Source: Methanocorpusculum sp. (GTDB lineage Archaea; Halobacteriota; Methanomicrobia; Methanomicrobiales; Methanocorpusculaceae). Taken from it: a stretch of DNA of 64,000 nucleotides. The stretch spans positions 1 to 64,000 of the forward strand of contig JAFQBW010000060.1 in the NCBI GenBank assembly GCA_017399555.1, written 5' to 3'. Of this stretch, positions 30,420-63,682 are shown one piece after another. The notes under the pieces were generated by a model, which ran no database searches, had not been told where the DNA came from, and worked only from the letters and a program-made list of their open reading frames with translations. A program made the translations under genes and the position numbers. How positions within the stretch are numbered: the stretch's first letter is position 1; the number at the start of each line of letters is the position of its first letter.

Positions 30420-31241
30420 ATGATTGAAAATAGTCTGTCCGAAGATGTGCCAATCATGCGCTCTTTGGAAAAGGTCCTGCGGCATCTTTTTGGTGCGGCT
30501 GTTGTGGTGCTTGTGCTTTGTCTGCTGTGCGCAGCTCCGGCTGGGGCTGAAAAGTCCATTTCAGTTGATGTCCCGGCAGTTCCAGTGTCGATTAATGAAC
30601 CGGTTACTGTCCCGGTGACAATTCATGATGCGGATAATATTCTTGGTTTTCTGATTGAGGTTCCAAATACTATCCCAGGAACAGTCATTACTATTGCTGA
30701 GAATGCGCCGGCTGCAGCACTGCCCGGAGCTTCTGCTCTGGTAAATTCAGGGGAATCTGCTGATGTTCAGAAGTATATCTGGTTTACTTCTGCAGCTCAG
30801 GGGATTTCCGGTGATATGACACTCTTCTCTCTGGAAATTACTGCAACAGTTGATTCTCCATCATCTATCCCGCTGACCGTTTCGGCAGTTGAGATTGATA
30901 ATGCTGAGTTTCAGGATGTTTATGCAGAGTATAAGGTAATTTCCGGAACCCTTGCGGTTACCGGAGCTCAGGGACAGAATCAGCCCGTTCAATCGGGCGG
31001 TTCACTTCCAGATGTTTCTATGGATACTGCTAACAATGGCACGACCGTGGAGTCAATCCCTGGGATGAATTCTGATGTATTGCCAACCGAATCCAATACG
31101 ACTGAGCCGTCGGATGATGTTCCGCCGGAGATAGGCTATGATGTGCCGACACCGGAAGCACCAGGCTCTGCATTCCCCCTGTTTGGTCTCTTTGCGGCTG
31201 TCGGTCTTATTTTCCTGATGTCAGGAGTACGGAGAGGATAA
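30420..31241 (+). CDS. Membrane-anchored cohesin-like domain protein 1
   Basis: This 273-residue protein has a signal peptide (about 18-43; LFGAAVVVLVLCLLC). Residues about 46-182 look like a cohesin fold: SISVDVPAVPVSINEPVTVP, IHDADNILGFLIEVP, a GDMTLFSLEI strand and a closing ISGTLAVTG. A Ser/Pro/Glu-rich linker follows (about 185-248), then a C-terminal hydrophobic helix (FPLFGLFAAVGLIFL) and an Arg-Arg-Gly end. That is an anchor in the manner of archaeosortase or TM-anchored proteins. The start may be the ATG at 30420 or the one at 30456. The signal-peptide DNA is similar to that of the 46066 gene. Four nt separate it from the next gene. Cohesin assignment is by pattern only. Confidence 0.75.
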   Translation: MIENSLSEDVPIMRSLEKVLRHLFGAAVVVLVLCLLCAAPAGAEKSISVDVPAVPVSINEPVTVPVTIHDADNILGFLIEVPNTIPGTVITIAENAPAAALPGASALVNSGESADVQKYIWFTSAAQGISGDMTLFSLEITATVDSPSSIPLTVSAVEIDNAEFQDVYAEYKVISGTLAVTGAQGQNQPVQSGGSLPDVSMDTANNGTTVESIPGMNSDVLPTESNTTEPSDDVPPEIGYDVPTPEAPGSAFPLFGLFAAVGLIFLMSGVRRG

Positions 31242-31245
31242 ACAC

Positions 31246-34200
31246 ATGAAAGTTATGAAAAGAACATTTTATGCTTTAACCGCACTTCTGCTGCTTGCAG
31301 CCTTCTTCGGAGGGGCTGCTGCAGCTGCGGAACAGTCAATTACAATTGATGTTCCAAGTACTGAAGTGCCGTGGAACGAAAAAACAACCGTTCCGGTAAC
31401 GATTCACGGTCCTGTTGAAATAGGGGCTGTGACAATTGACTTACCAGAAATTCCTGGTGTCATCATCTCAGTGAATGAAACTCAAAACCCGCTTGGTGCA
31501 ACTATCAATAATGAAAATGATGGCGCTAAGTATACCTGGCTCACTCTTTCTAAAACAGGTTATCTGAATGCTGACACTGTCTTATGTTATTTGGATATTG
31601 TTCCAGATGTAAGTACTCCGGTAACTAAGGTAGAAATTACTGTAATTATAGACGAGTTGGCTGACAAAAGCTTAGTTGACCAGATTTCAACATACCCGGT
31701 CAAACCAGCAACTCTGAAGATTCAGAAAGCCCCATCAATCGCCACCATGGTTGTAATCACTGCACCGGTCGGTGATACCGAGCTTGCCTACGGAACCGAG
31801 GGCACAGCTGTTGCTGTTGTCTACGACCAGTATGGCGATGTTATGGAAGATGAACCAGTTACCTGGTCTGTTTGTAAATCTGACAGTACTGAGCCTGCAA
31901 CCGGACTTTCCATTGATGCAAATGGAAACTACAAGGTTGTAAACTGTGCAGAAGGAACTGTTCAGATTTTTGCTGCAGCGGGTACTACATCGACCTGCAA
32001 TGTTGTCAAACTTGTTAAAGCAGACCTCGAAGCGGATGACTTTACCGTTACCGGTCTTGGCGAGTTTGTCTGGACAGGACAGCCGTTTGCAGTTACTGTT
32101 GAAGCCAAAGATAACGGAGTTGGAGACATCACCGTTACTTACAATGGTGCATCCGAAGCTCCAACGGCAAAGGGAACCTATGCGGTTAACATCTCCGTAA
32201 CTGACGGCGACAACTACAATGAAGTTGCCAACCTCTTCCTTGGAGAAGTTAAGATTACCGGAACTGTTATTGTCCCGCCAACTCTTGGAACCTTCCCGAC
32301 CTACAATGGTGAGGAACAGACCATTGATCTTGTTGACAGTGCAAACAGTGCAGGTATGTATGATGTTTCCGGAAACACCGGAACTGATGCCGGCAACTAC
32401 ATGCTTACCCTTACCCTGAAAGATACGGTAAACACTGAATGGAAGGATGCTGATTCTGCTTCCATCACTCTTGACTGGAAGATTTTACCAAAGTCTCTTG
32501 CAGATGCAGTTATCGAGGCAACTGCTGTCACCTACACCGGTGAAGAACAGACTCCGGAGTTTACCGTAACCCTTGACGGAGCAATCCTTGCTGCAGATAC
32601 TGACTACACGCTTGACGTAGAGGGCAGTATCGCTGCAGGAGACTACACAGTCACGGTTACTGGAAAGGGCAACTACGAAGGAACCGCATCTGCTACGTGG
32701 ACCATTGCAAAAGCTGTTCCAACTGCAGAGATGATTTCCTGTGAGATTCCAGATGACCTTGTCTACACTGGAGAATCGCAGACCCTTACTGCATCCGTAA
32801 AAGACGGTATCTACGGTCTTGGTGCAGTCACCCTGATGTACAACGGAGCAGAAGCTGCTGTTGACGCAGGAGAGTATGCTGTCACTGCAAACGTTGCAGA
32901 AGGTACAAACTACACTGCAGCCGCTGACCTTGCTGTCGGCACTCTCACGATTGGAAAAGCAGACCTTGACAAGGATGACTTTACTCTCAGTGCAACCAGT
33001 GCCGAGTACAACGGCAAGCCACAGGAAGTTACTGTTGCGCCGAAGGTTGACGGAGTTGCCGTCACTGCAATCAAGTACACTGGAGATGCCAATGCACCGT
33101 CCGCAAAGGGAACCTACACCATTACCATTTCCGCAACCGGCGGTAACAACTACAATGATGTAGCTGACCTCGAGGTTGGTACCTTTGTCATCACCGGACG
33201 TCAGGTTGCTGAGCCGGAAATCACCGGTTCGTACACCTACACCGGCGCAGAACTCACCGCAGTTATTGCAGAGAGTGCTGACTACAAAGTTACCGGAAAC
33301 AAAGCAACAGCAGCCGGAACCCACATTGTCACTGTCTCTTTAATGGACAAAGCAAACACTGCATGGAAGAACGGCGAAACTGATGACCTCAAACTTAACT
33401 GGGTTATTGCACCAAAGTCGATTGCAGGCGCAGGTGTGACCACCTCAACCGAAAATGACGCATTCACCTATGACGGCACAGTTAAGGTTCCGACCTTCAT
33501 TGTCACTGATGGTGCGCTTTCCATCGCAGAAACTGACTACTCTGTCGAAGGAGACAGCAGCAGTGCTGTTGCCGGAAAGCATCAGGTAACGATTGTCGGA
33601 CAGAACAACTACACCGGCGAAGTCAAGGCTGAGTGGCAGATTGCACAGGCAGTTCCAGTCATTGAGAACATGGAATTCACCATCCCGACCGGCGTTGTCT
33701 ATGGTCAGACCTATGAAGTCACCGCAGACGCAGCAGAAGGTGTTGTCGGACTTGGTGAGATTACTCTGCTCTACAATGGAACCGCAACCGCACCGGTCAA
33801 TGCAGGAACCTATCTGGTTAACGCAAGCATTGCCGCCGGCGTCAACTACACTGCAGCAGAAATTGAACTTGGCACACTGGTAATCGCAAAAGCAGTTCCA
33901 GTCATTGAAAACATCACTTTTGCAATTCCGGTTGATGTTGTCTATGACGGTAAGGAACATGCAGCTACCGCAACCGCCGCTGAAGGTGTTGTCGGTCTTG
34001 GTGCAATCAAGCTCCTCTACAATGATGCAGAAGCAGTACCGGTTGCTGCAGGAACCTACAAGGTGAATGCAAGCGTTGCTGCAGGTGACAATTATGAAGC
34101 CGCAGTCATTGAACTCGGTGAACTTACCATTGCAAAAGCAACGCTTACCAAAGCTGACCTTGTCATCACTCCGGAACTTCCGGTGAGCTATGAGGCAGGA

Positions 34201-35256
34201 AGCGCAGAAGCTGTTGTTGTTACTGTTAAGGAAGGCATCCTTGGAAACGGTACTATTACTGTCAAGTATAGCGATGCAACCACTGTCCCGAGTGAAGCCG
34301 GCATCTACAAGGTGAATGCAACCTTCGAAGCTGGTGTCAACTACACTGCCGCTGACATTTACCTTGGTGATATGACTGTTGTTGCAACGGTCGCACCAGG
34401 CTTTGGTGATATTGGAGTCGCAAACGATGACGGATCTCACACCATCACCGGTGGAGACGTTGATTCTGAAAACAACACCACGACCCTTGAGTCCAATGGT
34501 GTTCAGCTTGTCATTGCATTCTCTGACATGACTGCAGTATCCGGCGGAGTGAAAGGAAACATCACTGGTGTTACTGTCATTTATCCGGAAGCTGTTGCAG
34601 CATCTCCGAAAGCCGGTGACTTTGCATACAACCTGACCATTAACCTTGGAAACAAACTGACCACTCTGCTTCCAGATATGAGCGGTGTTTACAACAACAC
34701 TGTTGCCACGAAGGTTTCCTCGTTCCTTGGTACCAAGGCAACCTTTGACGGACTGGTTATGCTGACCGCAACCGGTGACAATGTTGATGACATCAATGCC
34801 AACATTACCGCCGGAAATGGAAACATCCAGATTGTCTTCAAGATTCCAAAAGCAACTGTTTCTGACAAGTCAAAGCTTGTTGTCTACCATGTTGGAAACA
34901 ACGTAAAGAAGGCAACTATCAAGTCCGTTGCAGAGGACGGAGAATTCTGGCTTGTTACCGTCACCGGCAACGGCTTCTCCAGCTATGTTGCAGGTATTGA
35001 GACTGCAGCTCCCAGCGGAGGAAACGGTGGAGGATCTGCAATTATTATCCCAAGCTCAGGAAAGACCCCATCCTCTGGAGATGTACCAACCGAGACTCCG
35101 TCCGATGAACCATCCGACGACCCGACCGATGTCCCGGGAGACGTCCCGTATGACATTCCGGGAACCACTCCGTCCGAGCCAGGAAAATCCCCGGCACCGG
35201 TTGCAGGAATGATTCTTGGAGCACTGGCGGCAGCAGCAGTTCTCAGAAGAAAGTAA
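31246..35256 (+). CDS. Cohesin-like protein 2 with MBG-type repeats and C-terminal anchor
   Basis: This protein of 1336 residues has a signal peptide (MKVMKRTFYALTALLLLAAF). Residues about 28-165 repeat the cohesin-like pattern of the upstream gene (SITIDVPSTEVPWNEKTTVP, IGAVTIDLP). An Ig-like domain follows (VYDQYGDVMEDEPVTWSV). About 265-1050 holds roughly ten MBG/YDG-like modules with the recurrent Y-x-G-x-x-x-x, AGTY-VN and NYTAAxxLGTLxIAKA patterns. Residues 1055-1250 form a domain ending in GFSSYVAGI. A Pro/Ser/Asp linker leads to PGKSPAPVAGMILGALAAAA and LRRK, a cell-surface anchor resembling PGF-CTERM. The first gene's stop overlaps this RBS (GAGAGGAT). Confidence 0.82.
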   Translation: MKVMKRTFYALTALLLLAAFFGGAAAAAEQSITIDVPSTEVPWNEKTTVPVTIHGPVEIGAVTIDLPEIPGVIISVNETQNPLGATINNENDGAKYTWLTLSKTGYLNADTVLCYLDIVPDVSTPVTKVEITVIIDELADKSLVDQISTYPVKPATLKIQKAPSIATMVVITAPVGDTELAYGTEGTAVAVVYDQYGDVMEDEPVTWSVCKSDSTEPATGLSIDANGNYKVVNCAEGTVQIFAAAGTTSTCNVVKLVKADLEADDFTVTGLGEFVWTGQPFAVTVEAKDNGVGDITVTYNGASEAPTAKGTYAVNISVTDGDNYNEVANLFLGEVKITGTVIVPPTLGTFPTYNGEEQTIDLVDSANSAGMYDVSGNTGTDAGNYMLTLTLKDTVNTEWKDADSASITLDWKILPKSLADAVIEATAVTYTGEEQTPEFTVTLDGAILAADTDYTLDVEGSIAAGDYTVTVTGKGNYEGTASATWTIAKAVPTAEMISCEIPDDLVYTGESQTLTASVKDGIYGLGAVTLMYNGAEAAVDAGEYAVTANVAEGTNYTAAADLAVGTLTIGKADLDKDDFTLSATSAEYNGKPQEVTVAPKVDGVAVTAIKYTGDANAPSAKGTYTITISATGGNNYNDVADLEVGTFVITGRQVAEPEITGSYTYTGAELTAVIAESADYKVTGNKATAAGTHIVTVSLMDKANTAWKNGETDDLKLNWVIAPKSIAGAGVTTSTENDAFTYDGTVKVPTFIVTDGALSIAETDYSVEGDSSSAVAGKHQVTIVGQNNYTGEVKAEWQIAQAVPVIENMEFTIPTGVVYGQTYEVTADAAEGVVGLGEITLLYNGTATAPVNAGTYLVNASIAAGVNYTAAEIELGTLVIAKAVPVIENITFAIPVDVVYDGKEHAATATAAEGVVGLGAIKLLYNDAEAVPVAAGTYKVNASVAAGDNYEAAVIELGELTIAKATLTKADLVITPELPVSYEAGSAEAVVVTVKEGILGNGTITVKYSDATTVPSEAGIYKVNATFEAGVNYTAADIYLGDMTVVATVAPGFGDIGVANDDGSHTITGGDVDSENNTTTLESNGVQLVIAFSDMTAVSGGVKGNITGVTVIYPEAVAASPKAGDFAYNLTINLGNKLTTLLPDMSGVYNNTVATKVSSFLGTKATFDGLVMLTATGDNVDDINANITAGNGNIQIVFKIPKATVSDKSKLVVYHVGNNVKKATIKSVAEDGEFWLVTVTGNGFSSYVAGIETAAPSGGNGGGSAIIIPSSGKTPSSGDVPTETPSDEPSDDPTDVPGDVPYDIPGTTPSEPGKSPAPVAGMILGALAAAAVLRRK

Positions 35257-35446
35257 CGACGAATGAACAAAACCGGTGGTAAGACAGCGTAACTGCCGTC
35301 TTTCTGCCATCCTGTAACGGAGACGAAGTACACCTTCCCCTGCGTGTCTTTGTCTCCTACTCTCGCGGGTCTGCTGCTTCGTTGTTGCAGCTCTCCCGCT
35401 TCCTTGACGGTTGAACAAAAAAAACTGACGAGGTTAGTTGAAGATT
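35257..35446 (+). promoter_or_regulatory. Leader of the first giant gene, with stem-loop
   Basis: At 35365-35399 GCGGG pairs with CCCGC and GCTGC pairs with GCAGC, separated by a symmetric TCT/TCT internal loop, with a 9-nt apical loop. The same element stands at 45989-46023. GAGGT at 35430-35434 is the RBS. The rest of the leader and the first codons are also repeated there. Confidence 0.65.
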
Positions 35447-38400
35447 ATGATGAAGAAAAGTGAGACTGAGGCAGGCTCAACGAGGCGTGCTTCGGTAAAG
35501 ACACTGCGGCTTGTGGTGTGTGCTGCGGTTGTATTGATGACGCTGTGTCTGGCGATGGCCATGCCTGTCTTAGCGGAGAATGAAACTCTTGATAGTGAAT
35601 TGAATTTTTCGGTGAGTAACAGTGATTCTGAACAGGATACTGCTGTATTGCCGGAAGATAGTTCGGGAGCATCAGAATCAGAGCTTCCTGTGGAACAGAG
35701 TGCGTCTCTGCCCGCTGTCACATCCTCACCATCATCTGAGATTCCTGTTGTATTTGTATATCAGAACACAGGCTATGAGGGCGAATGGACCTGCGGAAGT
35801 AATTCCGTCACCTTTGTCAACGGAGTAGTTACCGGTGATGATATTACTCCTGGAATCTACACGAATTCATCTGGTTACTCTATTAATCTGATGTATCCTA
35901 CAGCAGAGATTGACATCACGCTGAATGGTGAATCCATTATTGGAAAAACCATTCATCCGGCAGATGCTCCGTTTGTTGTTGTCTCGGTAAGCACCGAGAA
36001 TGGATACTATACTGAAGGCGGAAGCAACCTTGGTCTGGTTTTCAGTAATGAGGAGCAGAATATCCATGACACCCATATCTTTGGTGGAAAGTATTACAAT
36101 TACAGGTGGAATGAGACTCGTTATTCTCAGTATTCTGCATCATCGTATGCAGAAATCGGTGAGTGGACTGTACGTGCTCTGTTCTCTACAGGTTATGCAG
36201 ATGGTTCGTTGAGTTATAGTACTCCATCTGAGTATTGTTATAGCCAGAATTACTCATTCACTGTTTCAGATACTGCTGATGCAGTAAATTTCCCTTGTCT
36301 CATTATAAATGGGCCATCCGGAGTATCGCTTGATACTCGCTATTCATCTGATATTGATTTCTATGCCACCTATTATGATGCAGATGGAATCTCCAAATCA
36401 GAAACAATTCTCTGGACAAGCAGCAATCCGTCTGTTCTTACAATAGATTCATATGGTTACATAACTCCTAAAAAGATTGGAGAGGTTGAAATTACTGCCT
36501 CTCTTGTAACCAATCCAGCAGTATCTGCGTCAACTACTGTTTCAGTTGAAGAGACAAGAGTTACAAAAATATCCGGTTCTTACTCATCAACTCTGTCAAT
36601 AGGAACAACACGGTCTACTTACGTAGAACTGTATGATCAGTTCGGTATAGAAGTGTCTCCCAAAGATCTTCAATGGGAAATTCTTGAGGGAAATAGCAAT
36701 ATCACTCTTACGAATTATCTTCCGACTGAAAATCGTGTGACAATTACACCAGTTCATCCCGGTACTGCAACAATTCTTGCATATCCAGAATCTAATCCCA
36801 CACTTCAATGGAAACATAAGGTTACGGTAGTTAATTCGTCACCAGTAGGTGACATTACTTCTATCAGTGTAAGTGATAACCATGTTATCTTATACATAGG
36901 AGCAAAACCAAGTACTGATACTGTTGATGCATATGTATGTGACCAGTTCGGGTCATACATTTATGATGAGGAGGTTGAATGGACGGTTGACAACACTTCA
37001 GTGGTTTCTGTTACCGTAAACCCTGATGTTAATCACCCAACTCTTGAAGCATTGTTTACTCCAAAAGCAGTAGGTACAACAACAGTTCTTGTTTCTGCGA
37101 AGAATAATCCTCTGGTTAATGCGACAATTAATGTGGAGGTTCGAGAGTCAATAATTACATCTGTTGGTTTCCTATGGCATGATTATCCTGATGTGATGAC
37201 AGTTACTTCTTCTGAATCTGATCGTATTCGAAGTTTTGATCAGTACAACAGAGTTGTTTATGATGACACGTTAAATGTCACGGTAAGTCCAGCAGGTCTC
37301 CTGCAACTTTATGATTACTCACAGAAATCAACATCAGGAATCATTATTGATTCGGATGACTCTGTAGAAATCACAGCTCTTCATGCAGGAAATGTAACTC
37401 TGCGTGCAGAGTCTATATCTAATTCATCCGTATACATCGAAAAGCAGATTCAGATTCTGCCGTTTGATGTTGCAAGAATTGATATCACGTCTGCGCCCTC
37501 CAATCTCAAATTTGGTGACACTGATTATGTATATAGTCATCTCTATGATTCATTTGGGGAGTTAATTTCCAGATCTGGTTTTACTGTTCTCTGGACAGTT
37601 GATAACTACTCCACTCTTGGACTATCTGTAAACGAAAGCAGTGCTGATTCGAGCATTCAGTTCATTGGTTTAAATACAGGAACAGCAACTGTTCGTGCGA
37701 CATTGAAGGAGATTCCGTCTGTTTATGATGAGGTGACAGTACGGGTAGTTCCAGCGTCAGAAGGAGCATATGTAGAAATCAAGTCTAATCCTGAGAAAAT
37801 CTCCACTCTTGCAGAGCGTGACGAAATCTATGCCTACTTGGAAGACCAGTATGGCAGTTCTCTCCGTAATAGTCCTATTGTGTGGACTGTTGAAAACTCT
37901 TCAGTTCTTTACCTCTCCTTGAATGAGACAGAACATAATGATTATGTTGAACTGATTCCGGTGAATCCTGGTACTACTACGATTCGTGCAGCTGCAAAGA
38001 ATGATCAGACACGGTATGACGAAATTGAAGTCACTGTGGAAGAGACAGTACTGACATCGGTTAAACTCTCTGGAACTACAGAGATGTCACTTTTGGAAGA
38101 TAGACGTGGTTCAGCATCTGCAAAAGTTCTTGATCAGTTTGGCTGTAATGTGCCGTCAGAACAGATTAAATGGATACAGTCGAATTCTGCAGTTCTTAGA
38201 CTATCCTCATCAACAAGTAAGTCTGGCTCTTCTATCTATTTGTATCCGGCATCAGTAGGAACAACAGTTCTCCGGGCATCATCAGTAACGAACTCTAATT
38301 TGTTCTGGGAGATGGAAGTAACAGTTGAAGAACCGGTTGCAACGGAGGTAAAATTGAATGCTGATTCTCTCACGTATGATTCAATAAACAAGGTCTATGT

Positions 38401-41400
38401 TCTGGTTCTTGGTGATACATCAGAGTATGTAGTTGGATATGTTTATGATCAGTTTGGACATGATCTCTCCGGCTTCAATCTAAGTTGGTCTGTTGATAAT
38501 CAGGATATTCTGTCGTTCTCTTCTGCAGAATCAAAACAGGGTGAAGATGTACATCTCATTCCAAACAAGGCAGGAAACGCAGTAATTACCATGGCTGCTG
38601 TCGGGAATACATCTGCAATAAAAACATTGCCGATAGTTGTTGAGGAACCAGTGGCGAAATCATTCTATCTTCCGGAATATCGGAGAAGTATTACTATCAC
38701 TCTTGGAAACTCCTATGATTTGGACGCACCCTCTACCCGTCATCAGGGTGGCGGTTGGATGAAGAATGAAACAATCGTTTGGTCTGTTGACAACCCGTCT
38801 GTTATCTCTTTATATAACGAAACCAGTATCACTGATAGATGGGGTGATTCTAGTGTTATAATAACCGCAAACGCATTAGGTACTGCTGAAATTACTGTCT
38901 ATCCAAAATCGAATCCATCACTGAAAGAAACAGTGGTGATAACTGTTGAAGATCCGGTAATTACCCGTATTTCAGACAAGACCTATATTGGCTCAGGAAT
39001 TACTTTCACTTCCTCGCAGCCAAGAGATGTGACACTTTATCTTAGTGATCAGCGTGGATTTGGTATATCTAATGAAACTCTGCTCTGGAGTGTGGACAAT
39101 GCTTCAATCCTGAACCTGTCACAGGAAGAAACGATTACTGGAATTGGTGGTATGTCTACAGTAACAATTACACCGAAGATGAATGGAGTTACAAATGTAA
39201 CGATTCAGTCTGCAACGAACACCTCCATCGTCCGGACGATTCCAGTTACAGTAAACATGCCAGTGCTCTCAAAAATCGTTACATCTCCATCGGAAGTAGT
39301 TATCAGTACCGCATCGGGAGATAAGAGTATTACTATTCGTGTATATGATCAGCGTGGATACAGTATATCTGGACAAAACTTAATTCTCTCTGTAGATAAT
39401 CCATCTGTTATAACTCTCTCAGAGAAATCCCTGATAACAGATGATTATAATTACATAGATATTACTCCAAATAAAGCAGGAACTGCCGTAATCACTATTA
39501 CTTCAGCAGACAATCCATCTATCTCAAAACAGGTTAATGTCACTGTCGAAGAACCTGTTCTTTCAAAGTTACAAACTGGAAATTCTATTTCTGTAACATT
39601 AGGTCACTCGACCAGTGCATATGTTTATGCATATGATCAGTTTGGTTATGGTATTTCAAATGAGAAGATTTCCTGGGATATTAAAGATTCATCGATAGCC
39701 ACTTTATCCTCAGAGTCAACACTTACCAGTAAGAGTGGTTATTCCACCATTAATATTATTCCAAAGAAGGAAGGAACAACTGTTCTCACTATTCGTTCTG
39801 AAACGAATAAATCACTGATAAAAGAGATTCCAATTACTGTAGAGAATCCGGGGCTGAACAGTATCGATGTATCTCTATCATCCATTAAGTTAACTATAGG
39901 AAATACTCAATTAATTTCTGTTGGCGCTCGTGATCAGTTTAACTATGGTATTGCAAATGAAGTAATCCATCTTGAGGTTGATAATTCATCTGTCATATCA
40001 ATATCAGAAACAGATGTAGTTACCAGCTCTTCAGGTTATGGTTATCTTACTGTCACTCCAAAATCGGTAGGTACAACAAAGATTACTGTTCATTCAAAAT
40101 CCAATCCATCTCTGACAAAAACAATCACAGTTGTTGTTGAAAAGCCAGTGGTGTATAGTTTATCTCTATTGTCATTTCAGGGATATTACAATCAAGCATA
40201 TTTCACTACCGGTAATGTTGATACAATTAATGCATTTGTATATGATCAGTTTTCTAACAGGCTTAATGGAATCTCACTTCTTTGGTCAATAGATAATTCC
40301 TCAGTTCTCAGTTTGGCTACGTCCTCATCAGTAACTGCAGATAGTGGATATTCAACAATGGATGTCACACCAAAAGCCGAAGGGACAGCAGTAATTACTG
40401 TTTATCCTTCTTCAAATCCATCTCTGAAAAAAGAAATCCGTGTAACTGTTGAAGACGAGATCATAAGCAAGATGTCTGCCAAGTCATCCATGTCCTTGGT
40501 TGTTGGAGACACAAAAAGTGCAGCGGCATATGTTGATAATCAGTTTGGTGATGGAGTTGAAGGTGAGGTAGTATTGTGGACTGTGGATAATCCCTCTGTT
40601 ATATCCCTGGGTGCTGCATCCAGTGAGACAAACAGTTATGGTACTGCCTCTGTCATGACAACTGCAAAAGCACCGGGTAGTGCAACCATTACTGCAACCC
40701 TTGCTTCTAATAGTTCCATGAAGGTAACGATTCCGGTTACTGTGGAAGAATTAGTGGTGAGCAGTATTACTGGAAGCTCTGCAATATCGGTAACACCAGG
40801 AACAAAACCCGCTGTGTATTGTTCTGTCTTTAATCAGTTTGGAACAAGTGTTGGTGCTGGAGAAATTATTTACTGGAAATCTGAAGACACATCAATCCTT
40901 GAATTAGAGACATCTTCATCAGTTACAACAGGCAGCTATTCATCTACTTCCATGTCCGTTATCCCGAAGAAACCGGGAGTTACAAAGATTATCGTAAGTT
41001 CTCAGAATAATCCTTCAGTAACTCACACGATAACAGTTACGGTTGAAGAGGCAATTGTATCTTCTATTGGGTCTTATGACTCACTCTCTTCGTCGGAGGA
41101 TAAAACAGCAGAAATCCTCCTTCTGAACCAGGTTGGAAATGAGTACATTTATGGTTATGTTTATAATCAGTTTGATCACTCACTCACAGGTGAGAGAATC
41201 AAATGGACCGTGAGTAATCCTTCTGTTCTCTCCCTCTCCACATATGAATCCGAGAGTTCAAAAACAGTATATCTCACACCAAAATCAGAAGGTACTGCAG
41301 TTATAACTCTGTCTTCTATAAAGAATCCAGCTATCTCTAAGGAGATTACGATTCGTGTGGTAAAACCGGTAATCACTGATATTGCTTCTTCACCGAATGT

Positions 41401-45901: not shown

Positions 45902-45988
45902 GCAGCGAATCACTGAACAGAAAGACGAAAAACAAATACAGAAATGCGGCTGCTTTCCGGAACAGGATGGAGACTGGCTGCATTTCCT

Positions 45989-46023: not shown

Positions 46024-46065
46024 TTCTATACTGGTTGAACAAAACTCAATGAGGTTTATTGAATT

Positions 46066-50337: not shown

Positions 50338-51083
50338 AATCGAGATATCTTGCTATAACGGTGCTGCTTGCTGTCTTTGCCTTTGCAGTACTTCCGGCTG
50401 CTGTTGCTGCGGACTCTTCCTCCGCTCCGCAGCTTCCGGCACAGATTCATGGAACAGTGGTTGACAAAAACGGTGTTCCGCTTCCGGCAGGAACGGTGAT
50501 TACCGCAACGGTGGATGGAAACGAGTTCACGTACACCATCAAGGAGGATGGAAAGATTGGTGAGCCGGGAACTTTTGGAGAAAAGTTCCTGGTTCATGGA
50601 GAAAATGCCGGAAGTTCGATTGAGTTCTCGGTAAACGGAGAGCCGGCAGGAGAGCTTCCACTCTACACGCCGGGAAAATCCATGGAGTTTGATTTAAGCT
50701 TCCCGGTAGATGCTGATAATCTGCAGCCCTCCGGTTCTTCCGCATCCGGTGATTCACCGTCAACTCCGTCAGTTCCTGCAGATACACCGGGCAAAAATCC
50801 GGTAGAGACACCATTGGCATCCAATCCGTCAAAGACTCCGTCTGAATCAACCTCGTCTCCATCAGAAACACCAGAGGCTACGGATTTGCCGGTAGAGGAT
50901 GACCCTGGCGAGATTCTGCCGCCAGCCGGTGATACCGGAGATTCTCCGGTTGAGGTTGTCCAGCCGATTGAGCCTATCGTGCATCCGACTGATGTTCAAA
51001 CACCCGGCTTCTCATTCGGGTTACTTATGGGAGCATTAACTCTTAGCGTATTCCTTACCAGAAAGGGGGGAGATAAACAATGA
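50334..51083 (+). CDS. PGF-CTERM surface protein with carboxypeptidase-regulatory-like domain
   Basis: This 249-residue protein has a signal peptide (MKSRYLAITVLLAVFAFAVL). Residues about 32-125 form a small beta domain (QIHGTVVDKNGVPLPAGTVI ... GEKFLVHGENAGSSIEF), and the same domain opens the protein at 55208. A Ser/Pro/Thr-rich linker, probably glycosylated, spans about 128-222. The end, TPGFSFGLLMGALTLSVF followed by Arg-Lys, is a PGF-CTERM signal, expected to be processed by an archaeosortase and lipid-anchored. Both junctions are ATGA overlaps (50334 with the upstream stop, 51080 with the downstream start), so it is translationally coupled to its neighbours. Confidence 0.85.
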   Translation: MKSRYLAITVLLAVFAFAVLPAAVAADSSSAPQLPAQIHGTVVDKNGVPLPAGTVITATVDGNEFTYTIKEDGKIGEPGTFGEKFLVHGENAGSSIEFSVNGEPAGELPLYTPGKSMEFDLSFPVDADNLQPSGSSASGDSPSTPSVPADTPGKNPVETPLASNPSKTPSESTSSPSETPEATDLPVEDDPGEILPPAGDTGDSPVEVVQPIEPIVHPTDVQTPGFSFGLLMGALTLSVFLTRKGGDKQ

Positions 51084-53773: not shown

Positions 53774-53792
53774 AACAGAGGAGATAATCAGA

Positions 53793-55211: not shown

Positions 55212-58200
55212 AACAAAAACTCATTCTCATAATTACCCTGCTCCTGGCTCTCGCCTGCGCAGCAGTGCCTGCAGTTGCTGACTCCTCCTCCTCTGCACCG
55301 CTTCTGCCGATGCAGTTCTTTGGAACCGCATCCTATGAAAACGGTGATGCAGTCCCTGCAGGATTTAGTATCGTTGCCGAACTCGGCGGACAAACATTCA
55401 CCCACACCCTGACCGAAGATGGTATCTTTGGTTCTGACGGTGTATGGGGTGAGAAGTTCCTCGTAGACGGAGATACCGCAGGGGAAATAATTACCTTCTC
55501 GCTCGTTGATACTGCCGGAGACAGCGTCTCTGCTGCAGAAACCGTCACATACAACCCCGGTGAAATCTCAGAGATCGCACTGACTTTTGAAAGTCAGAGC
55601 GATGACACGCCAAAACACAGTGCATGGCTCAGTACTGACAATGTTTCTGTTGGCGATGTCTTCTATCTGAATATCTCCGGAAACGCTGAAGAAACGGTAT
55701 TTGTTATTGTTGATACGTATCGGGTCTCTATTCACCCGGACCTTGATAATGTTGACTACACCATTTCCTCAAATGCCTACAACATAACCCTTGATGCAAC
55801 TGGTAACTGTTCAGTACCGTTCACTGCAGAAAGAATTGGTGATGCTCAGTTTGATATAGGGTTCAGTGATAACTCTGGTATCTCAGTATCTGTCAACATC
55901 ACTGCTGCTAAAGAGGGCTATCTGAAAATCCAGGCACCAGCAGGACTTTCCCTTGATGCAGGAGACAAATGGGTATATGCACACTACTACAATGAATTTG
56001 GAAAATGGCAGGGTGATGTTTATGTTACCTGGAAGATTGACGACAAATCTGTAATCGGTTTAGCCGAGATGGAAGATAGAAGTGTCCGTCTTTCCCCGAG
56101 AAGCATAGGCACTGCTGTACTCTATGCTGAACTCTCTGACAACCCGTTAATCAATGCAACAGTTGAACTTGTCGTAGAGGAGACGGAGATTGTCGGAATT
56201 ACCGGTGGTTGTTCTTCCTCTACCCTGTCCCTTGGTACAACGGGAAGTGCCTGGGCAAATGCTGTTGACCAGTTTGGAAAAGAGTTTTCCTATAATGAAA
56301 TTGAATGGTCTGTTTCTGGCGGAAATATTTCCCTTACTAGTTCTGAGGACGATAAGCACAAAGTAACTATAACGCCAATCGCTGTTGGTACAGAGACAAT
56401 TACTGCATTGTCTTTATCAACAGGTCTCACCTGGAATCTTACTGTTACTGTTGTTGCAGGTACTACTAACCCAGATGCAGGTGATCCCTATGAAGTGGTC
56501 TATGGTCCTGGTGATTTGTATCTCTCTGTTGATGCAGTTCCTCATGCTGCTTCAGCATATGTTCTTGATATATTTGGAAATGTTCTCTATAATGAAGAAA
56601 TTGAGTGGGTAATCGATAATGAATCCGTAGCAGTGGTCTCAGTTGAAACAGATATCAATGATAATACACATGAAATAAAAGTTACTCCAAAAGCAAATGG
56701 CACAACAGTTCTGCACGCATATGCTAAATCAAACCCTCTCTTAAATGAATCAGCAGTTATACATGTTGAGGATACAATCATTAGTTCTGTATCAGGTCCA
56801 TACATTCCTGAAAAAATAACAATTGGTGGCATGAATTGGTGGTCTAGTGTATATGTATGTGACCAGTTTGGTTATCCGGTTCCTGGTGAAAAGGCAACTG
56901 TAACTGTTAATAACAGTTCTGTTCTAATCCTCTATTCTGATAATGGTAGTGGTTCTTCAGTTCAGCTAACGAATGGTGAGACCATGTCATATGGGGGATT
57001 AAGTCAGGGAGTTGTTACAGTTAAAACAGTTGCTGTATCTAACCTCTCTGCTTCCCTTTCTCAAACAGTAACGGTTGAGAATTCCATTGTTGCATTAATC
57101 TCACTGCAGAATCATGCCGACAGCATACTTCCAATGCGTTCTAATCATTATTTCCACGCAGAGGTAGTTGATCAATATGGGGATTACTTATATTCTCAGG
57201 AACTGGTGTGGACAGTTGGAAATGAGGGTGTAGTATCTATCACAGATACCTGGGATTATTCAGTAGAATTATGTCCAATCGCTCCTGGTACAACTACCAT
57301 CCGTGCTGCTTTGAAGAGTGATCGTACCATCTATGATGAGATTACGGTAACGGTCGAAGAGACCATTCTTCGTTCCATCTACTTAAGTGGAACAACAGAG
57401 ATGTCTCTCTTCGCTCAAGGAGATGCGTATGCAGTTGCAAAAGATCAGTATGGAAATGATCTCCCTGAAGAAGAGATTGGTTGGAAGGTAGACAATCCGG
57501 CAATTCTGGAGATTAGTGACGGTTGGTCATCTGGAAACCACTGGGTTGATCTTTATCCCAAAGCATTGGGAAGCACTAAGATTCATGCTTATGCGGTATC
57601 CGACCCATCCATTACCTGGAACATGACTGTTTCTGTGGTAAAGCCGGTTCTGACCAAGATTGAACTCCCGTACTCCACCAAGACCGTTTCCATGAACACC
57701 TTGGCGTCCATCTCAGCAGATGTATGGGATCAGTTCGATAACCATCCGGATTATGCTGAGATATACTGGACGGTGGACAACGAATCTGTTCTTGAACTCT
57801 CCTCTACTCTCTCCAAGAATGGACGAGAAATCCTGCTCATCCCGCAGATGCCGGGTGTGGTGAATCTTACCGTATCTCCGGTAGGCTTCCCGGAGTACAG
57901 TGAGACAGTGCAGATAATAGTTTCAGGTTCCGCTCTTCCAACCGTCACCACTGACTTCCCGGTAACTGCGTATAATGGAGAGACACTGAAAATCTCCGGA
58001 ACTGCAGAAGACGGCATGGTGCTTCAGGCGATCATCTTTGGTAAAGACGGAGTATGGAAACACACTGCATCTGCAAACGCAGATGGCGAGTTTACCTTCA
58101 CTATTCCGACCGCAAACCTCAGCACCGGCTCCTACTCATTGGTGTTGCAGAGTCCGATGTATGATGGATACTTCAATATTGACGCGGCTGCAGACGGCAA

Positions 58201-61200
58201 AGTCTATCTGAACACAACCGGTCCTGCAGTTGTTGACGGTGTCGGATGCGGTACTGTTCTCTTCAAACCTGCTGACCGCAACCCGGCAAATGCTGCACAG
58301 GCATTCTATGATGCAGTGTTTGCATCGGGAGTTGATGACTGGTGTGCTATTGGGGCATTCACTGTAGAAGATTCCTCACTGGTAATGAACGATGTAGAAG
58401 ACATCGTTGTCGGTGCTCCGCTGGAAGTTTCCGGAACCTCTTCCTATCCGGCAGGAACGAAAATCTTCATTGAACTCTCTGATTACTGGTCTGGTGAACT
58501 GGTTCTGAATGAGACAGCAACCGTATCTGCATCCGGAACATGGAATGCAACCTTTAACACCACTGGTCTTGCGACAGGTAACTATCAGGTATATGCTGAA
58601 CTCCCTGGAGTTTCTTCGTGGTCTTCCTCTGTTTACCTTTATGAGGGAATACAGCTCTATCTGTATGGCCCTACCTATGTAGAGCTGGATTCAGCAGATG
58701 AATATCTGAGTGTCGGCTATTGGGCTAATATCCCGGTTTCTGATGACGGACTGGACTGTATATGGAATGTCAGCAACGAAAGTGTGTTAACAATTATTGA
58801 CACTGATTCTTGGGGTCTGAAAGAGATTCGTCCGGCAGCAGAAGGTACCACAACCATTCGTGTATCTCTTGTTGACGATCCGTCTGTATTTGCTGAAACA
58901 GAAGTAACTGTTGTTTCTGAATTTATTCCCACTTCTCTGAGCATCTGGCTCTATGATGACACCATATCAACTGCTGCTTCCGGAATATTCTCTGTCGATA
59001 TCTTTGATCAGTTTGGTCAGTCCCTCTATTCGAAGAATGGTGAGTCACTGAGTACACTCATAAATGTCACCTCTGATAACACCTCAGTTGTGACTGTTGC
59101 TCCATCCAGTGAGTCTGGTAACTATCTTCTCATTCCGGTAGCTCCGGGTACTGCTGAGATTCGGGCTGTTCTCAGCACTGATGATTCACTTTCCGCAGCT
59201 GCAACGGTTACTGTTGTTGCATCGGAGATGGGAATCTATCTCTGGGCTGACAGCGAGACAATCTCTGTTGGCACGGAAAGCTATATTCAGGCATATGTCT
59301 ATGACCAGTTCGAACATCCGGCAGCCATGTACACCGATGAGTTCATCTGGAGCGTGAGCAATCCAGATATCCTGCAGCTTGCGGCAGACTACGATGAGCG
59401 GTACAGCAGTAACTACAGAATGAAGATGACCGCTCTTGCTCCGGGAACTGCTACAGTTACCGCAGTCTGGAAGGAGAATCCATTCTATGTTGCTGAGTAC
59501 ACTGTGACCGTGGAAAAACCGGTTCACAACTATATCTCTACTGAAGTTTGGGGTCAGATAACACTGGATGCAGTTGTCGGAGCTGAGAATGGATACATTG
59601 AAGGTGTACTTTGCGATCAGCATGGAAATATTATCCTCACTAATCCCGTCTCCGCTACAATTGTAAACAAATCGGTCATTTCGCTTACCAAAGATTCGGA
59701 AAATACCGCACGCTGGATTATCCAGCCGCTTGCTGTCGGTACAACAGATGTTGTCCTTTCCGTAAAAGACAGCTCGGTAGAACCATCTATCGTTTCAGTT
59801 ACTGTTGAAGATACGAAGCCGCGTCTGTCAATCGATACGCTGGGAAGCTTATACAGCAATGAAATCTCACTGTCATATGCAGATCTCCTGTATTTCGGTG
59901 CAGTTGATCAATTTGGAAACTTCCTTAATCCGGAGAAATATCCGGTCTCCTGGAATGTCAGTGACACTACTGTTCTGAACGTAACAACAGTCACTCAGGA
60001 AACAGAAGTATATGATGTTCTTGTTGTCAAACCAAACACCACAGGAACTGCAGTTCTGACATTCTCTCTGGAAAATGGCGTGTCTAAATCAGTAGAACTC
60101 ACAGTCTCTGAAGAAACAGAGATTATCTATGTTGGAATCGGAGATATTTCTGCATATGAGACTGATGCAGCACCTGCAGCACCTCTGCAGACTGCCTCTC
60201 TGAACACTCCATACCCGCCGTATCCGGAACACTCTGATGTACAGCGGTTAACCCTTGGTACTGATTATGCTGCTGTAATTCTGGCCGCTGATCAGTTTGG
60301 CAACATCTTTGGAACTGATGCATTGGCTATCACGGTGGACAATCCGGGTATCATCTCCTGGGAATGGCAGCAGGAGCTTGCTTCCTATGGAATCCCCGGA
60401 TGGATGCTGAATATTACTCCGCTGAAAGCCGGAACTGTAACGCTTACTGCGGCATCTGCTGACGATCCGTCGGTTTTTGATTCCGTGACTGTCACCGTTG
60501 TTGGCCCAACACTTATTGTCCCAAGCGGTCAGGCAGAAATCATTGTCCCGCCAACTATCAGTCCAAAGGGTGGTATGCTCTATCAGGACATTGAGGTAAC
60601 CATTACTACTGAAACTGTTGGTGCATCCGTCTACTACACGTTAGACGGTACCACACCAACCAACCAGAGTATCCTCTACGAAAAACCATTCGTCCTTGAT
60701 GAATCAGCATTTGCCAATGGAAAATCCCTGATTATCAAAGCAGTTGCTGTCAAAGACGGATGTGCAGACAGTACTGTCGTCACGGAAATCTACACCCACG
60801 CAAAGAAGGACAAACCAAAGCACAAAGTCCAGGCTGCATCGGTTACCGGAGGTTCTGTTACCATCAGTTCCTCCGAATCAGAAGCTGATGAACTCATCAC
60901 CCTGACGTTCACTGAAAACGAAGGCTACAAGCTTGCCGGATGGAGTATTCAGGGCAGCATCAGCGGTACCTACTCCAACAAATCCGGAACAGTCTCTGAC
61001 TTCGCTATGTGGGATGAAGACGTTATCATTGTCCCGGACTTCATCCAGATTGTCGACCAGACACCGAAACCGACTGCAATCAAGTTCCAGCACGTGCCAT
61101 CCAAGATTTATGAAAACGATACCGGAGCATTCAATGCAATCGTCTACGACCAGTTCGGAAACCGCCTTGCAAACAACGCGGTTACCTGGAACTCGTCTGC

Positions 61201-63682
61201 TCCGTCTGTCTTTGCCATCGACAAAGACACTGGTGTCTATCAGGCAAAGGCTGGAGGAATTGCCGTCGTCACTGCAGCATCTATCACCAACCCGGACGTA
61301 TCTGCTTCTGTGACGCTCTCAGTTTATGTCCCGCCAAAGCCGCTTATCACCGGAGAAATCAGCGGCCCGGTCACTGCATACTATGGTGTCATGAGCGACC
61401 CGTACATCGTAACGTCCGAGTACTCTTCCCACCTCAACTGGGACTTCGGCGATGGAACACCGACCGTGAAGACGGAAGTCAACTACCCGTACCCGTACCA
61501 CACGTCAAGCTACGACACCGTTTCCCACACCTTCGTTGAGACTGGAGACTTAACCGTCGAACTGACTCCGTCCAACTCCTACCGTGAGGGAGAGACCAAG
61601 ACCTTCAACGTCCATGTCACCTACGCACCGCCGAGAAACCTCGTTATCACCGACGGACCGACCGCGGTTGTCGGCGGCAAGAGTTATGTCTACACAGCAT
61701 TTGCAACCGGTGCGGATACCTACACCTGGTATCTTGACGGCCAGGTTGTTGAAGGAGAGACTGGTTCTTCTGCAACAATCACGTTCCCAACTTCGCAGAA
61801 CGAGAGAACTGCTGAGGTCAAGGTTGCCGCATCCTACAAAGACAGCGGAAACTGTGATCCTGTCACAAAGACTGTAACAGTCTCTGTTGAAGACGGAGTG
61901 CTCGGCGCATTCGGCGATGACATCACCATGAATCCTGCAAAACCGGCAGTTGGTGATGTGGTTGTCTTCAGCATCGAGAAAGTCTCCAATGCAGTCAAGT
62001 ACCTCTGGACCTTTGAGGACGGCCACACTGAGACCACCACTGCACCGAAGGTCTCCCACGCATTAAAAGACACGACAACTGACTCGGTCACGGTTACCGC
62101 GTACAACAGTGCCGGTCTCACTAAAGAAAAGACCTACACCTTCACCGTGGCCGGTGCAAAGCCGGCAAAGCCGGCAATTTCTGCAAGCAAGACTCCGGCA
62201 AATCCGGGAGATACCATCATCTTCACTGCAGAATCCTCTGGTGCCACGACCTATAAGTGGACAGTTGATGGTTCAGTACAGGAATCCACTGCAAACACCT
62301 GTGAAGTATTCTGGACCGTTGACGATGTTGGAAAACATGAGGTTGCGGTCACGGTCAGCAATGACTATGGAACGGCAAAGAACAGCATTGTATATGAAGT
62401 AGCGGCAAAGAAAGGAAAACCGGCGTTCATCAAGAAGATTACCGGACCGGATGTCATGAACGAACAGGGTTCGGAGACTTTCAATGCGGTAATTCAGTGT
62501 CAGGATGATTATGATATCGCCTGGTATCTGAACAACGAACTCATAGAAGGAGAAACAACCAAGCATCTTAAACTCCAGCTTCCGGTAGGCGAGTATGTCT
62601 TAAAAGTGGTTGTTACCACTGAGTATGAAGAGGTCTCCGAGTATGAGAAGTACTTCAAGGTAGTTTCCAAGAAAGACAAGCAGAAGAACAACAAAGACAA
62701 GAACCTGGCAACTCCGGAGAATGCCGTCACCCCGCAGCTGGTGGACAACAGTTCATCTGGAAAGAGTGCATTCAGCACGGTCGGCTCTCTGAAACTGGAC
62801 AAAGACGATATCAGCAAAGATGCAGATGAAGTCTCTATTGAGATTGCCCCAATCAATCCGGAGGAGTTAGCTGGATTCACTGATGAGATGGGAAGCCGTC
62901 AGAATGTTCTCATGAGTCTGGAAATCAATCCGACCGGTCTGAAGAATGAGAAGAGTCTGGAAAAGAGTGCACATATCACCTTCCGTCTGTTAAAGGATGA
63001 TGTTGCAGATTCTGAAGCAGTTCAGTTCTACCGCTTAGATACCGGTTCCGGTGTTGACCAGTGGGTCAGACTCCACAAAGTAAGCTGTGTTGAAGACGGC
63101 GACTACTATGAGTTCACGGTTGCAACGGCTGGTATGTCTCAGTTTGTTGCAGCACCAGTTTCTCTCTTAGATGAACAGGAGAAGCCGGCTGTCCCGACCG
63201 TTGAGATTACCAACACTACTGCAACCTTCAATGCAAAGATTCCGGCAGAAGTAAGCTACACGTTATCCCCTGACAGCATCAGCAGTCTTCGTGCTCCGGT
63301 TCTGACAAAAGGCGGTCTGACACTTACTATTGGCGATGTTATCGTCGAGAAGGTTGTTGGAGGCACTTCCACAAAAGTATCTTCAGAGGTTCTGGAAAAC
63401 GGTGAGGTTTCTGTGTCTGGTGATATCAGCGATGCAGAGTCTCTGAAGGTAAGCTTCATGGGAAGAATTCTGGGTGACACCCTCGGCAATGGAAAAGTCG
63501 GTGCGGTCAGTGCATTAAAGATTGCCCAGAATATTGTTGGTCTCGAATCCGGAAAGATGAGTGACACGGACAAATTCTATGGTGACGTCAACGGTGACGG
63601 CAATGTCAAGGTTGTCGATGCACTCATGATTGCGCAGTACACTGTTGGAATCCTGGACGAGAACTATGTGAGAGTTGCATAA
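55208..63682 (+). CDS. Second giant dockerin-tipped Big_2 surface protein
   Basis: This protein of 2824 residues has a signal peptide (MKQKLILIITLLLALACAAV). The N-domain (about 32-135) is the one seen in the 50334 protein. Seven Big_2 repeats follow. A methanogen S-layer-type module (about 915-1135, LQSPMYDGYFNI and ANAAQAFYDAVFASGVDD) interrupts the series, and six more Big_2 repeats come after. The last third (from about 60550) is homologous end-to-end with the 35447 protein: chitobiase-like domain (VYYTLDGTTPTNQS), Big_2, PKD-like (NWDFGDGT), PGF-pre-PGF-like block, X-like module and dockerin (about 2756-2824). There is no membrane anchor. It is coupled to the upstream gene by ATGA. The central AT-rich part and the GC-richer C-terminal third suggest a mosaic origin. 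Confidence 0.88.
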   Translation: MKQKLILIITLLLALACAAVPAVADSSSSAPLLPMQFFGTASYENGDAVPAGFSIVAELGGQTFTHTLTEDGIFGSDGVWGEKFLVDGDTAGEIITFSLVDTAGDSVSAAETVTYNPGEISEIALTFESQSDDTPKHSAWLSTDNVSVGDVFYLNISGNAEETVFVIVDTYRVSIHPDLDNVDYTISSNAYNITLDATGNCSVPFTAERIGDAQFDIGFSDNSGISVSVNITAAKEGYLKIQAPAGLSLDAGDKWVYAHYYNEFGKWQGDVYVTWKIDDKSVIGLAEMEDRSVRLSPRSIGTAVLYAELSDNPLINATVELVVEETEIVGITGGCSSSTLSLGTTGSAWANAVDQFGKEFSYNEIEWSVSGGNISLTSSEDDKHKVTITPIAVGTETITALSLSTGLTWNLTVTVVAGTTNPDAGDPYEVVYGPGDLYLSVDAVPHAASAYVLDIFGNVLYNEEIEWVIDNESVAVVSVETDINDNTHEIKVTPKANGTTVLHAYAKSNPLLNESAVIHVEDTIISSVSGPYIPEKITIGGMNWWSSVYVCDQFGYPVPGEKATVTVNNSSVLILYSDNGSGSSVQLTNGETMSYGGLSQGVVTVKTVAVSNLSASLSQTVTVENSIVALISLQNHADSILPMRSNHYFHAEVVDQYGDYLYSQELVWTVGNEGVVSITDTWDYSVELCPIAPGTTTIRAALKSDRTIYDEITVTVEETILRSIYLSGTTEMSLFAQGDAYAVAKDQYGNDLPEEEIGWKVDNPAILEISDGWSSGNHWVDLYPKALGSTKIHAYAVSDPSITWNMTVSVVKPVLTKIELPYSTKTVSMNTLASISADVWDQFDNHPDYAEIYWTVDNESVLELSSTLSKNGREILLIPQMPGVVNLTVSPVGFPEYSETVQIIVSGSALPTVTTDFPVTAYNGETLKISGTAEDGMVLQAIIFGKDGVWKHTASANADGEFTFTIPTANLSTGSYSLVLQSPMYDGYFNIDAAADGKVYLNTTGPAVVDGVGCGTVLFKPADRNPANAAQAFYDAVFASGVDDWCAIGAFTVEDSSLVMNDVEDIVVGAPLEVSGTSSYPAGTKIFIELSDYWSGELVLNETATVSASGTWNATFNTTGLATGNYQVYAELPGVSSWSSSVYLYEGIQLYLYGPTYVELDSADEYLSVGYWANIPVSDDGLDCIWNVSNESVLTIIDTDSWGLKEIRPAAEGTTTIRVSLVDDPSVFAETEVTVVSEFIPTSLSIWLYDDTISTAASGIFSVDIFDQFGQSLYSKNGESLSTLINVTSDNTSVVTVAPSSESGNYLLIPVAPGTAEIRAVLSTDDSLSAAATVTVVASEMGIYLWADSETISVGTESYIQAYVYDQFEHPAAMYTDEFIWSVSNPDILQLAADYDERYSSNYRMKMTALAPGTATVTAVWKENPFYVAEYTVTVEKPVHNYISTEVWGQITLDAVVGAENGYIEGVLCDQHGNIILTNPVSATIVNKSVISLTKDSENTARWIIQPLAVGTTDVVLSVKDSSVEPSIVSVTVEDTKPRLSIDTLGSLYSNEISLSYADLLYFGAVDQFGNFLNPEKYPVSWNVSDTTVLNVTTVTQETEVYDVLVVKPNTTGTAVLTFSLENGVSKSVELTVSEETEIIYVGIGDISAYETDAAPAAPLQTASLNTPYPPYPEHSDVQRLTLGTDYAAVILAADQFGNIFGTDALAITVDNPGIISWEWQQELASYGIPGWMLNITPLKAGTVTLTAASADDPSVFDSVTVTVVGPTLIVPSGQAEIIVPPTISPKGGMLYQDIEVTITTETVGASVYYTLDGTTPTNQSILYEKPFVLDESAFANGKSLIIKAVAVKDGCADSTVVTEIYTHAKKDKPKHKVQAASVTGGSVTISSSESEADELITLTFTENEGYKLAGWSIQGSISGTYSNKSGTVSDFAMWDEDVIIVPDFIQIVDQTPKPTAIKFQHVPSKIYENDTGAFNAIVYDQFGNRLANNAVTWNSSAPSVFAIDKDTGVYQAKAGGIAVVTAASITNPDVSASVTLSVYVPPKPLITGEISGPVTAYYGVMSDPYIVTSEYSSHLNWDFGDGTPTVKTEVNYPYPYHTSSYDTVSHTFVETGDLTVELTPSNSYREGETKTFNVHVTYAPPRNLVITDGPTAVVGGKSYVYTAFATGADTYTWYLDGQVVEGETGSSATITFPTSQNERTAEVKVAASYKDSGNCDPVTKTVTVSVEDGVLGAFGDDITMNPAKPAVGDVVVFSIEKVSNAVKYLWTFEDGHTETTTAPKVSHALKDTTTDSVTVTAYNSAGLTKEKTYTFTVAGAKPAKPAISASKTPANPGDTIIFTAESSGATTYKWTVDGSVQESTANTCEVFWTVDDVGKHEVAVTVSNDYGTAKNSIVYEVAAKKGKPAFIKKITGPDVMNEQGSETFNAVIQCQDDYDIAWYLNNELIEGETTKHLKLQLPVGEYVLKVVVTTEYEEVSEYEKYFKVVSKKDKQKNNKDKNLATPENAVTPQLVDNSSSGKSAFSTVGSLKLDKDDISKDADEVSIEIAPINPEELAGFTDEMGSRQNVLMSLEINPTGLKNEKSLEKSAHITFRLLKDDVADSEAVQFYRLDTGSGVDQWVRLHKVSCVEDGDYYEFTVATAGMSQFVAAPVSLLDEQEKPAVPTVEITNTTATFNAKIPAEVSYTLSPDSISSLRAPVLTKGGLTLTIGDVIVEKVVGGTSTKVSSEVLENGEVSVSGDISDAESLKVSFMGRILGDTLGNGKVGAVSALKIAQNIVGLESGKMSDTDKFYGDVNGDGNVKVVDALMIAQYTVGILDENYVRVA
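63192..63682 (+). repeat. 491-bp repeat encoding X-like module and dockerin, copy 2
   Basis: Equal in length and nearly identical to 45411-45901. The scattered differences are mostly at third codon positions. Confidence 0.85.

Follow-up and report, generated by a model that had tools for sequence, protein, structure and literature searches.

A candidate cohesin-dockerin system for attaching adhesin-like rods to the cell surface of a Methanocorpusculum methanogen

In the genome of Methanocorpusculum, a gut-type methane-producing archaeon, we describe a gene cluster that probably encodes a two-part surface system, with anchored cohesins holding secreted adhesin-like rods on the producing cell through predicted cohesin-dockerin binding. 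A short membrane-anchored protein and a second one with a long stalk of MBG repeats would each display a cohesin at the tip, and two giant Ig-like rods would be secreted free of any anchor, both ending in an identical plug of X module and dockerin. Outside the cell, the dockerin is predicted to plug into the cohesin, and the large adhesin would be kept non-covalently, probably with calcium. The rod would then be retained on the surface of the very cell that made it (cis attachment). A further gene pair, situated elsewhere in the genome on contig C30, would work in parallel.

Organization of the Gene Cluster

The stretch of DNA analyzed here, 64,000 nucleotides in length and termed the window, is part of contig C55 in a 2.02-Mb assembly that is 92.66% complete and served for the genome search. 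The cluster spans positions 30420-63682 and comprises eight genes, all on the plus strand. Genes, reading frames and gene order are as described in the original prediction. The following features were assigned:

30420..31241, plus strand, short anchored cohesin protein (273 aa): signal peptide and cohesin, then an acidic linker of Pro/Thr/Ser, membrane segment at the C-terminus followed by RRG
30543..30974, plus strand, cohesin domain 1: AF2 model, top fold match 2xdh (Archaeoglobus fulgidus cohesin)
31173..31229, plus strand, C-terminal membrane anchor of the short cohesin protein
31246..35256, plus strand, long anchored cohesin protein (1336 aa): signal peptide and cohesin, then about seven Ig-like repeats of the MBG type, C-terminal anchor with LRRK end
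31324..31737, plus strand, cohesin domain 2: assigned by sequence homology and profiles
35188..35244, plus strand, C-terminal membrane anchor of the long cohesin protein
35447..45901, plus strand, giant secreted rod 1 (3484 aa): signal peptide, Big_1/Big_2-type Ig-like repeats, chitobiase C-terminal-type and PKD domains, X module and dockerin at the end, no anchor
45422..45901, plus strand, X module and dockerin cassette of rod 1: 97% DNA identity to the rod 2 cassette
45674..45886, plus strand, dockerin of rod 1: calcium loop canonical in repeat 2, degenerate in repeat 1
46066..50337, plus strand, GLUG-repeat secreted protein: no dockerin, cohesin or anchor, C-terminal 'GWNFxSVPK' domain
50334..51083, plus strand, small anchored protein: PGF-CTERM-like tail, N-domain resembling the N-terminus of rod 2
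51080..53773, plus strand, accessory secreted protein: similar to part of an S-layer glycoprotein, C-terminal GWNF domain
53712..55211, plus strand, accessory secreted protein: C-terminal GWNF domain, true start uncertain
55208..63682, plus strand, giant secreted rod 2 (2824 aa): signal peptide, Ig-like and PKD domains, X module and dockerin at the end, no anchor
63203..63682, plus strand, X module and dockerin cassette of rod 2
63455..63667, plus strand, dockerin of rod 2: protein 100% identical to the rod 1 dockerin

Cohesin Identity of the N-Terminal Domains

The N-terminal domains of the two anchored proteins (30420, residues 42-185; 31246, residues 27-164) share homology (E 5.6e-11). Pfam alone matched neither of them, and Pfam Cohesin returned nothing when run on the whole genome. 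A cohesin call was likewise absent from NCBIfam, and single-sequence Pfam and phmmer searches missed P0001. Single-sequence searches fail because the cohesin domain of the window is too divergent, and a Pfam search by itself would have led to a wrong rejection of the cohesin finding.

When a profile of seven Methanocorpusculum members was compared with 177,635 PDB sequences, it retrieved cohesins almost exclusively, with 2xdh as the best match (1.6e-4), cellulosomal scaffoldin cohesins among the others and one weak, unrelated S-layer match. A 19-member profile found 2xdh at 4e-8, followed only by cohesin or cohesin-like entries including the cohesin-like module of NagJ, and 16 of the 19 family members individually matched Pfam Cohesin at E<=1 (best 2.3e-18). 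Circularity was excluded by a leave-genus-out profile, which was built from other genera only and run on the ORFs of the genus: it recovered eight of eight genus cohesins at E<=8.4e-5, while the next unrelated match was at 0.44.

Structure prediction covered the domain at 30543-30974, for which AF2 yielded a model (pLDDT 87.8, pTM 0.84) with the jelly-roll beta-sandwich of a cohesin over about 140 residues. The fold of domain 2 was assigned through homology to domain 1. In Foldseek comparisons of the domain 1 model with the PDB, the first 37 matches were all cohesins, headed by 2xdh (probability 1.00, TM up to 0.81). Judged from profiles and model, we regard cohesin identity as settled for domain 1 and, through homology, for domain 2. 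This agrees with the original prediction, in which both N-domains had been called cohesin-like on the basis of their strands and a comparison with cohesin structures had been proposed: the genus-only, 19-member and leave-genus-out profiles as well as the AF2/Foldseek fold of domain 1 all lead to cohesins.

Dockerins and the Cassette Shared by Both Rods

Dockerins (PF00404) consist of two tandem loop-helix repeats of 22-24 residues and are usually found at a terminus of the protein. In classical type I dockerins, both calcium loops carry canonical ligands at positions 1, 3, 5, and 12. At the extreme C-terminus of both rods, Dockerin_1 (Pfam, PF00404) scores above its curated cut-off, and the module is made up of two tandem loop-helix repeats; the leave-genus-out profile detects the dockerin with an E value of 2e-17. 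The calcium loop of repeat 2 is canonical with intact D/N/D/D ligands. That of repeat 1 is degenerate (D1 L3 N5 S12) and misses two of the four ligands, which is why we file the rod dockerins as a dockerin-family module and not as the classical two-calcium type I. The earlier assignment of the rod ends to type I dockerins thus holds for the family, as defined by Pfam, but not for a complete calcium chemistry.

The dockerin is preceded by a beta-rich X module, for which AF2 is confident over about residues 30-98 of the X-dockerin construct. The dockerin half is modeled poorly, as three helices at low confidence, and the dockerins 4uyp_B and 5nrk_D are among the weak Foldseek matches of this low-confidence model. 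At the DNA level, the last 480 nt of rod 1 and rod 2 are 97% identical, compared with about 64% for the preceding 420 nt. This block with its sharp 5' edge indicates that X module and dockerin were copied or homogenized as a unit, and the cassette common to both rods points to a single docking specificity.

Between the window species and G018, a genome of the same genus, the dockerin is 91-95% identical and the adjacent X module 32-41%. The carriers of the dockerin differ as well, being Ig rods in the window genome and a GLUG protein in G018; the latter is related to the 46066 protein (about 30% identity) and ends with X module and dockerin. Synonymous sites of the dockerin are near saturation between the species (dS about 1), with dN at 0.04-0.06 and dN/dS at about 0.05, which argues for purifying selection. 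Recent transfer of the dockerin between the species is ruled out by the near-saturated synonymous sites. Conserved as it is beside a divergent module, the dockerin behaves as a constant plug on exchangeable rods, and such a separable plug would let different rods (Ig rod, GLUG, beta-helix) fit the same kind of socket. A point against the proposed attachment is that the accessory 46066, 51080 and 53712 proteins have no dockerin, so that the dockerin route is closed to part of the secreted proteins in the cluster.

Membrane Anchors and Topology

Both cohesin proteins possess a signal peptide as well as a C-terminal hydrophobic segment with a basic tail. A membrane anchor was looked for in the rods encoded at 35447 and 55208 and is absent from both. 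The same division applies to the larger set of proteins: a C-terminal membrane segment is present in 14 of 14 anchored-type cohesin proteins vs. 0 of 17 dockerin proteins, and it is also absent from both fused cohesin-plus-dockerin proteins that were checked from other families. The topology originally put forward, anchored cohesin proteins and anchorless giant rods, is therefore confirmed, with a hydrophobic C-terminal segment and basic tail on the cohesin side only.

Gene Pairing and Distribution

In the window genome, the full count is three cohesins and three dockerins. The original prediction had missed the third pair, which resides on contig C30 (C30:62163-63135; also recorded as C30:62163-64600), where the gene for a dockerin-ended protein is directly followed by an overlapping gene for an anchored cohesin protein. 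This dockerin protein carries a pectate-lyase-like adhesive domain; the first loop of its dockerin is enlarged, and Pfam misses it. Related pairs are present in G006 and G018. Dockerin-bearing and cohesin-bearing genes are adjacent at the C55 as well as at the C30 locus. It counts against the proposed pairing that the window cluster opens with its two cohesin genes, of which only 31246 has a dockerin gene as its direct neighbor. In G018, the short and the long cohesin gene, in this order, are flanked by a dockerin gene on either side, and a C30-type pair is present on another contig.

An open cohesin search of the order, followed by a dockerin search of the neighborhoods, yielded 22 cohesin genes from five families, orthologs included. 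For 19 of these, a dockerin gene resides on the same strand at a distance of <=300 nt; it is located directly upstream in 17 cases, mostly overlapping or within 20 nt. Of 25 genus genomes, four have cohesins, and these are also the four with dockerins (Fisher 8e-5; as the loci are linked, the independent events are fewer than this suggests). In an even sample of 99 genomes from the phylum, Pfam detected cohesins in 31 and dockerins in 48, the latter occurring in 26 of the 31 genomes with cohesins vs. 22 of the 68 others (p 2.6e-6). The existence of archaeal examples had been pointed out before, and this is correct, but the term 'isolated' is too weak for such a distribution.

The interpretation of the cluster as an attachment system gains support from the translationally coupled dockerin-then-cohesin pairs across the order and from the matching presence and absence within the genus. 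It appears quite improbable to us that the N-domains serve as Ig-like spacers of cohesin fold and the dockerin-like ends as helical caps, the two no longer forming a binding pair. Cohesin-fold domains without known dockerin partners do exist elsewhere, e.g., in TMEM132 (PMC6030884) and as the cohesin-like module of NagJ, and the degenerate first calcium loop of the dockerin would fit such a role; however, if the modules did not interact, it would be difficult to account for their identical distribution in the genus, the one-to-one gene pairing in five families and the purifying selection acting on the dockerin.

Coupling of the genes also bears on the question of which cell would carry the rods. 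A giant rod that is soluble and has a single plug is able to act between cells, and both ANME archaea and their bacterial partners express cohesin/dockerin proteins, which have been suggested to take part in aggregation (PMC10553843; PMC9012536). Binding in trans, by which shed rods would be caught by the cohesins of neighboring cells as biofilm or aggregate glue or would cross-link cells, is nevertheless an unlikely main function, since co-transcribed, translationally coupled pairs favor cis assembly at secretion, although they are still compatible with use in trans.

Cargo of the Dockerins and Comparison With Cellulosomes

Bacteria employ cohesins and dockerins to build cellulosomes, their machinery for breaking down cellulose. 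In the 92.66%-complete genome none of the dockerins is borne by an enzyme; all three reside on the Ig rods or on the protein with the pectate-lyase-like adhesive domain. Nor does the genome encode a scaffoldin with several cohesins, as each of the three cohesins is the only one in its protein, and Pfam scans revealed no carbohydrate-binding module. Lacking scaffoldin, carbohydrate-binding module and enzyme-borne dockerin, the system is not a cellulosome. The conclusion drawn originally, that adhesin rods rather than enzymes are attached to the cell, is thus supported by the absence of dockerins on enzymes, by the position of the anchors on the cohesin side and by the soluble, dockerin-tipped nature of the rods.

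The anchored cohesins might instead mainly capture enzyme-borne dockerins that went unrecognized in the incomplete genome or stem from other gut microbes. A dockerin enzyme could indeed be encoded in the missing part of the genome, and a subtilase domain is found on a dockerin protein in another family of the order. Against this, the dockerins in the four genomes of the genus are all on adhesin-type or unclassified secreted proteins, nearly all of them beside a cohesin gene, and we consider enzyme capture extremely improbable. It is very doubtful, too, that the system works across species, with cohesins of the methanogen catching bacterial or fungal dockerins of the gut or its dockerin rods plugging into bacterial scaffoldins. 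Were this the case, a hydrogen-consuming methanogen would be physically coupled to fiber-degrading, hydrogen-producing partners.

The proposed attachment of adhesin rods resembles the surface anchoring of bacterial cellulosomes by anchoring scaffoldins and X-dockerin dyads in that an anchored cohesin would catch an X-dockerin protein and that the same module families are used. The system of the window differs from the bacterial cellulosome by having neither enzymes nor a carbohydrate-binding scaffoldin nor repeated cohesins, and its anchors are of the archaeal C-terminal type.

Comparison With Known Archaeal Systems

Non-cellulosomal cohesins and dockerins of archaea have, to our knowledge, been known since 1999, and we know of no agreed function for them. 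In Archaeoglobus fulgidus, the C-terminal dockerin of ORF2375 and the N-terminal cohesin of the adjacent ORF2376 bind strongly and specifically (PMC9705933). By analogy, this pair lends the strongest outside support to the predicted binding in Methanocorpusculum: the genes are adjacent, the dockerin is C-terminal and the cohesin N-terminal, the system is non-cellulosomal, and the C30 pair has the same gene and domain order. Moreover, the A. fulgidus cohesin structure 2xdh is the best match to the window domains in both sequence and fold. In Methanocorpusculum, by comparison, the cohesin proteins are clearly membrane-anchored, one of them on a long MBG stalk, the rods are 2800-3500 aa long and their dockerins follow an X module, and there are two systems per genome.

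ANME archaea contain scaffoldin-like proteins with up to five cohesins as well as dockerins on ABC-transporter binding proteins (PMC9012536; PMC5244752), and their syntrophic bacterial partners also have cohesin/dockerin proteins (PMC10553843). These organisms share with Methanocorpusculum enzyme-poor extracellular cohesin-dockerin proteins with a suspected role in cell contact, whereas single cohesins, the absence of a scaffoldin and an adhesin-only cargo set Methanocorpusculum apart from ANME. Cohesin proteins are furthermore present in another methanogen, the corrosive strain Methanococcus maripaludis Mic1c10, whose type II-like cohesins have been proposed to hold extracellular proteins (PMC11452385). 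The proposed cargo there is a hydrogenase held by glycans, and a dockerin is not mentioned (PMC11452385).

Archaeal non-cellulosomal cohesin-dockerin pairs are hence already known, from Archaeoglobus and ANME, and widespread. New is a version in which all cargo is adhesin-like, the cohesins are anchored and single, the X-dockerin rods are about 3000 residues long and the dockerin-then-cohesin gene order is conserved across the order. No report of a cohesin-dockerin system in Methanocorpusculum was found in the literature searched by keyword, the coverage of which is incomplete. With three sockets, three plugs, adhesin-like cargo and anchors on the socket side only, the genome presents a small and nearly closed case, in which surface attachment of adhesins can be put to a direct test as the function of archaeal cohesin-dockerin pairs. 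It also provides a simple genomic rule for recognizing cognate pairs, namely that the gene immediately preceding an anchored cohesin gene encodes a dockerin protein, and this rule reaches cohesins that Pfam misses.

GWNF Domain and Additional Observations

Three secreted proteins of the cluster end with a domain of about 170 aa ('GWNFxSVPK ... GNGxWxYV ... GLTA'; 49789-50334, 53231-53770 and 54675-55208; 54-66% identity) that is not covered by any model in Pfam or NCBIfam. This GWNF domain was rejected as a second docking tag tied to cohesins: it occurs in six of the 25 genomes of the genus, four of which have no cohesins, and is absent from two of the cohesin genomes. It is possibly another surface-retention tag.

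The small anchored protein (50334-51083) and the N-terminus of rod 2 (55208-55660) are homologous in their N-domains (38% identity, 152 aa), such that one and the same domain occurs in an anchored as well as in a soluble product of a single operon. The protein at 51080-53773 matches, over part of its length, the S-layer glycoprotein family MEMAR_RS02690 (E 1e-50, below the curated cut-off), and residues 929-1128 of rod 2 (about 57990-58590) match that protein with 31% identity. As judged by these similarities, S-layer-like modules are located inside the adhesin cluster.

In other families of the order, a recurrent two-gene unit was noted (L070, L072, L073, L080, and L081), in which the gene for a dockerin-ended protein of about 1770 aa is located directly upstream of a gene whose product, about 1280 aa in length, has a cohesin at its start and a dockerin at its end. 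Such a unit could chain or cross-link. In L070, the protein of about 1770 aa features subtilase and CARDB domains.

Upstream of the cluster, inspection of the window revealed a secreted protein of 1424 aa with repeated 'GGAVYVSGG'-type units and no obvious anchor or dockerin (16725-20999), an MFS-type transporter with two C-terminal CBS-like domains, which constitutes an unusual fusion (23522-25384), and, just before the first cohesin gene, tandem and closely similar genes for acyl-CoA-synthetase-like (AMP-forming) proteins (25716-27395 and 27828-29519).
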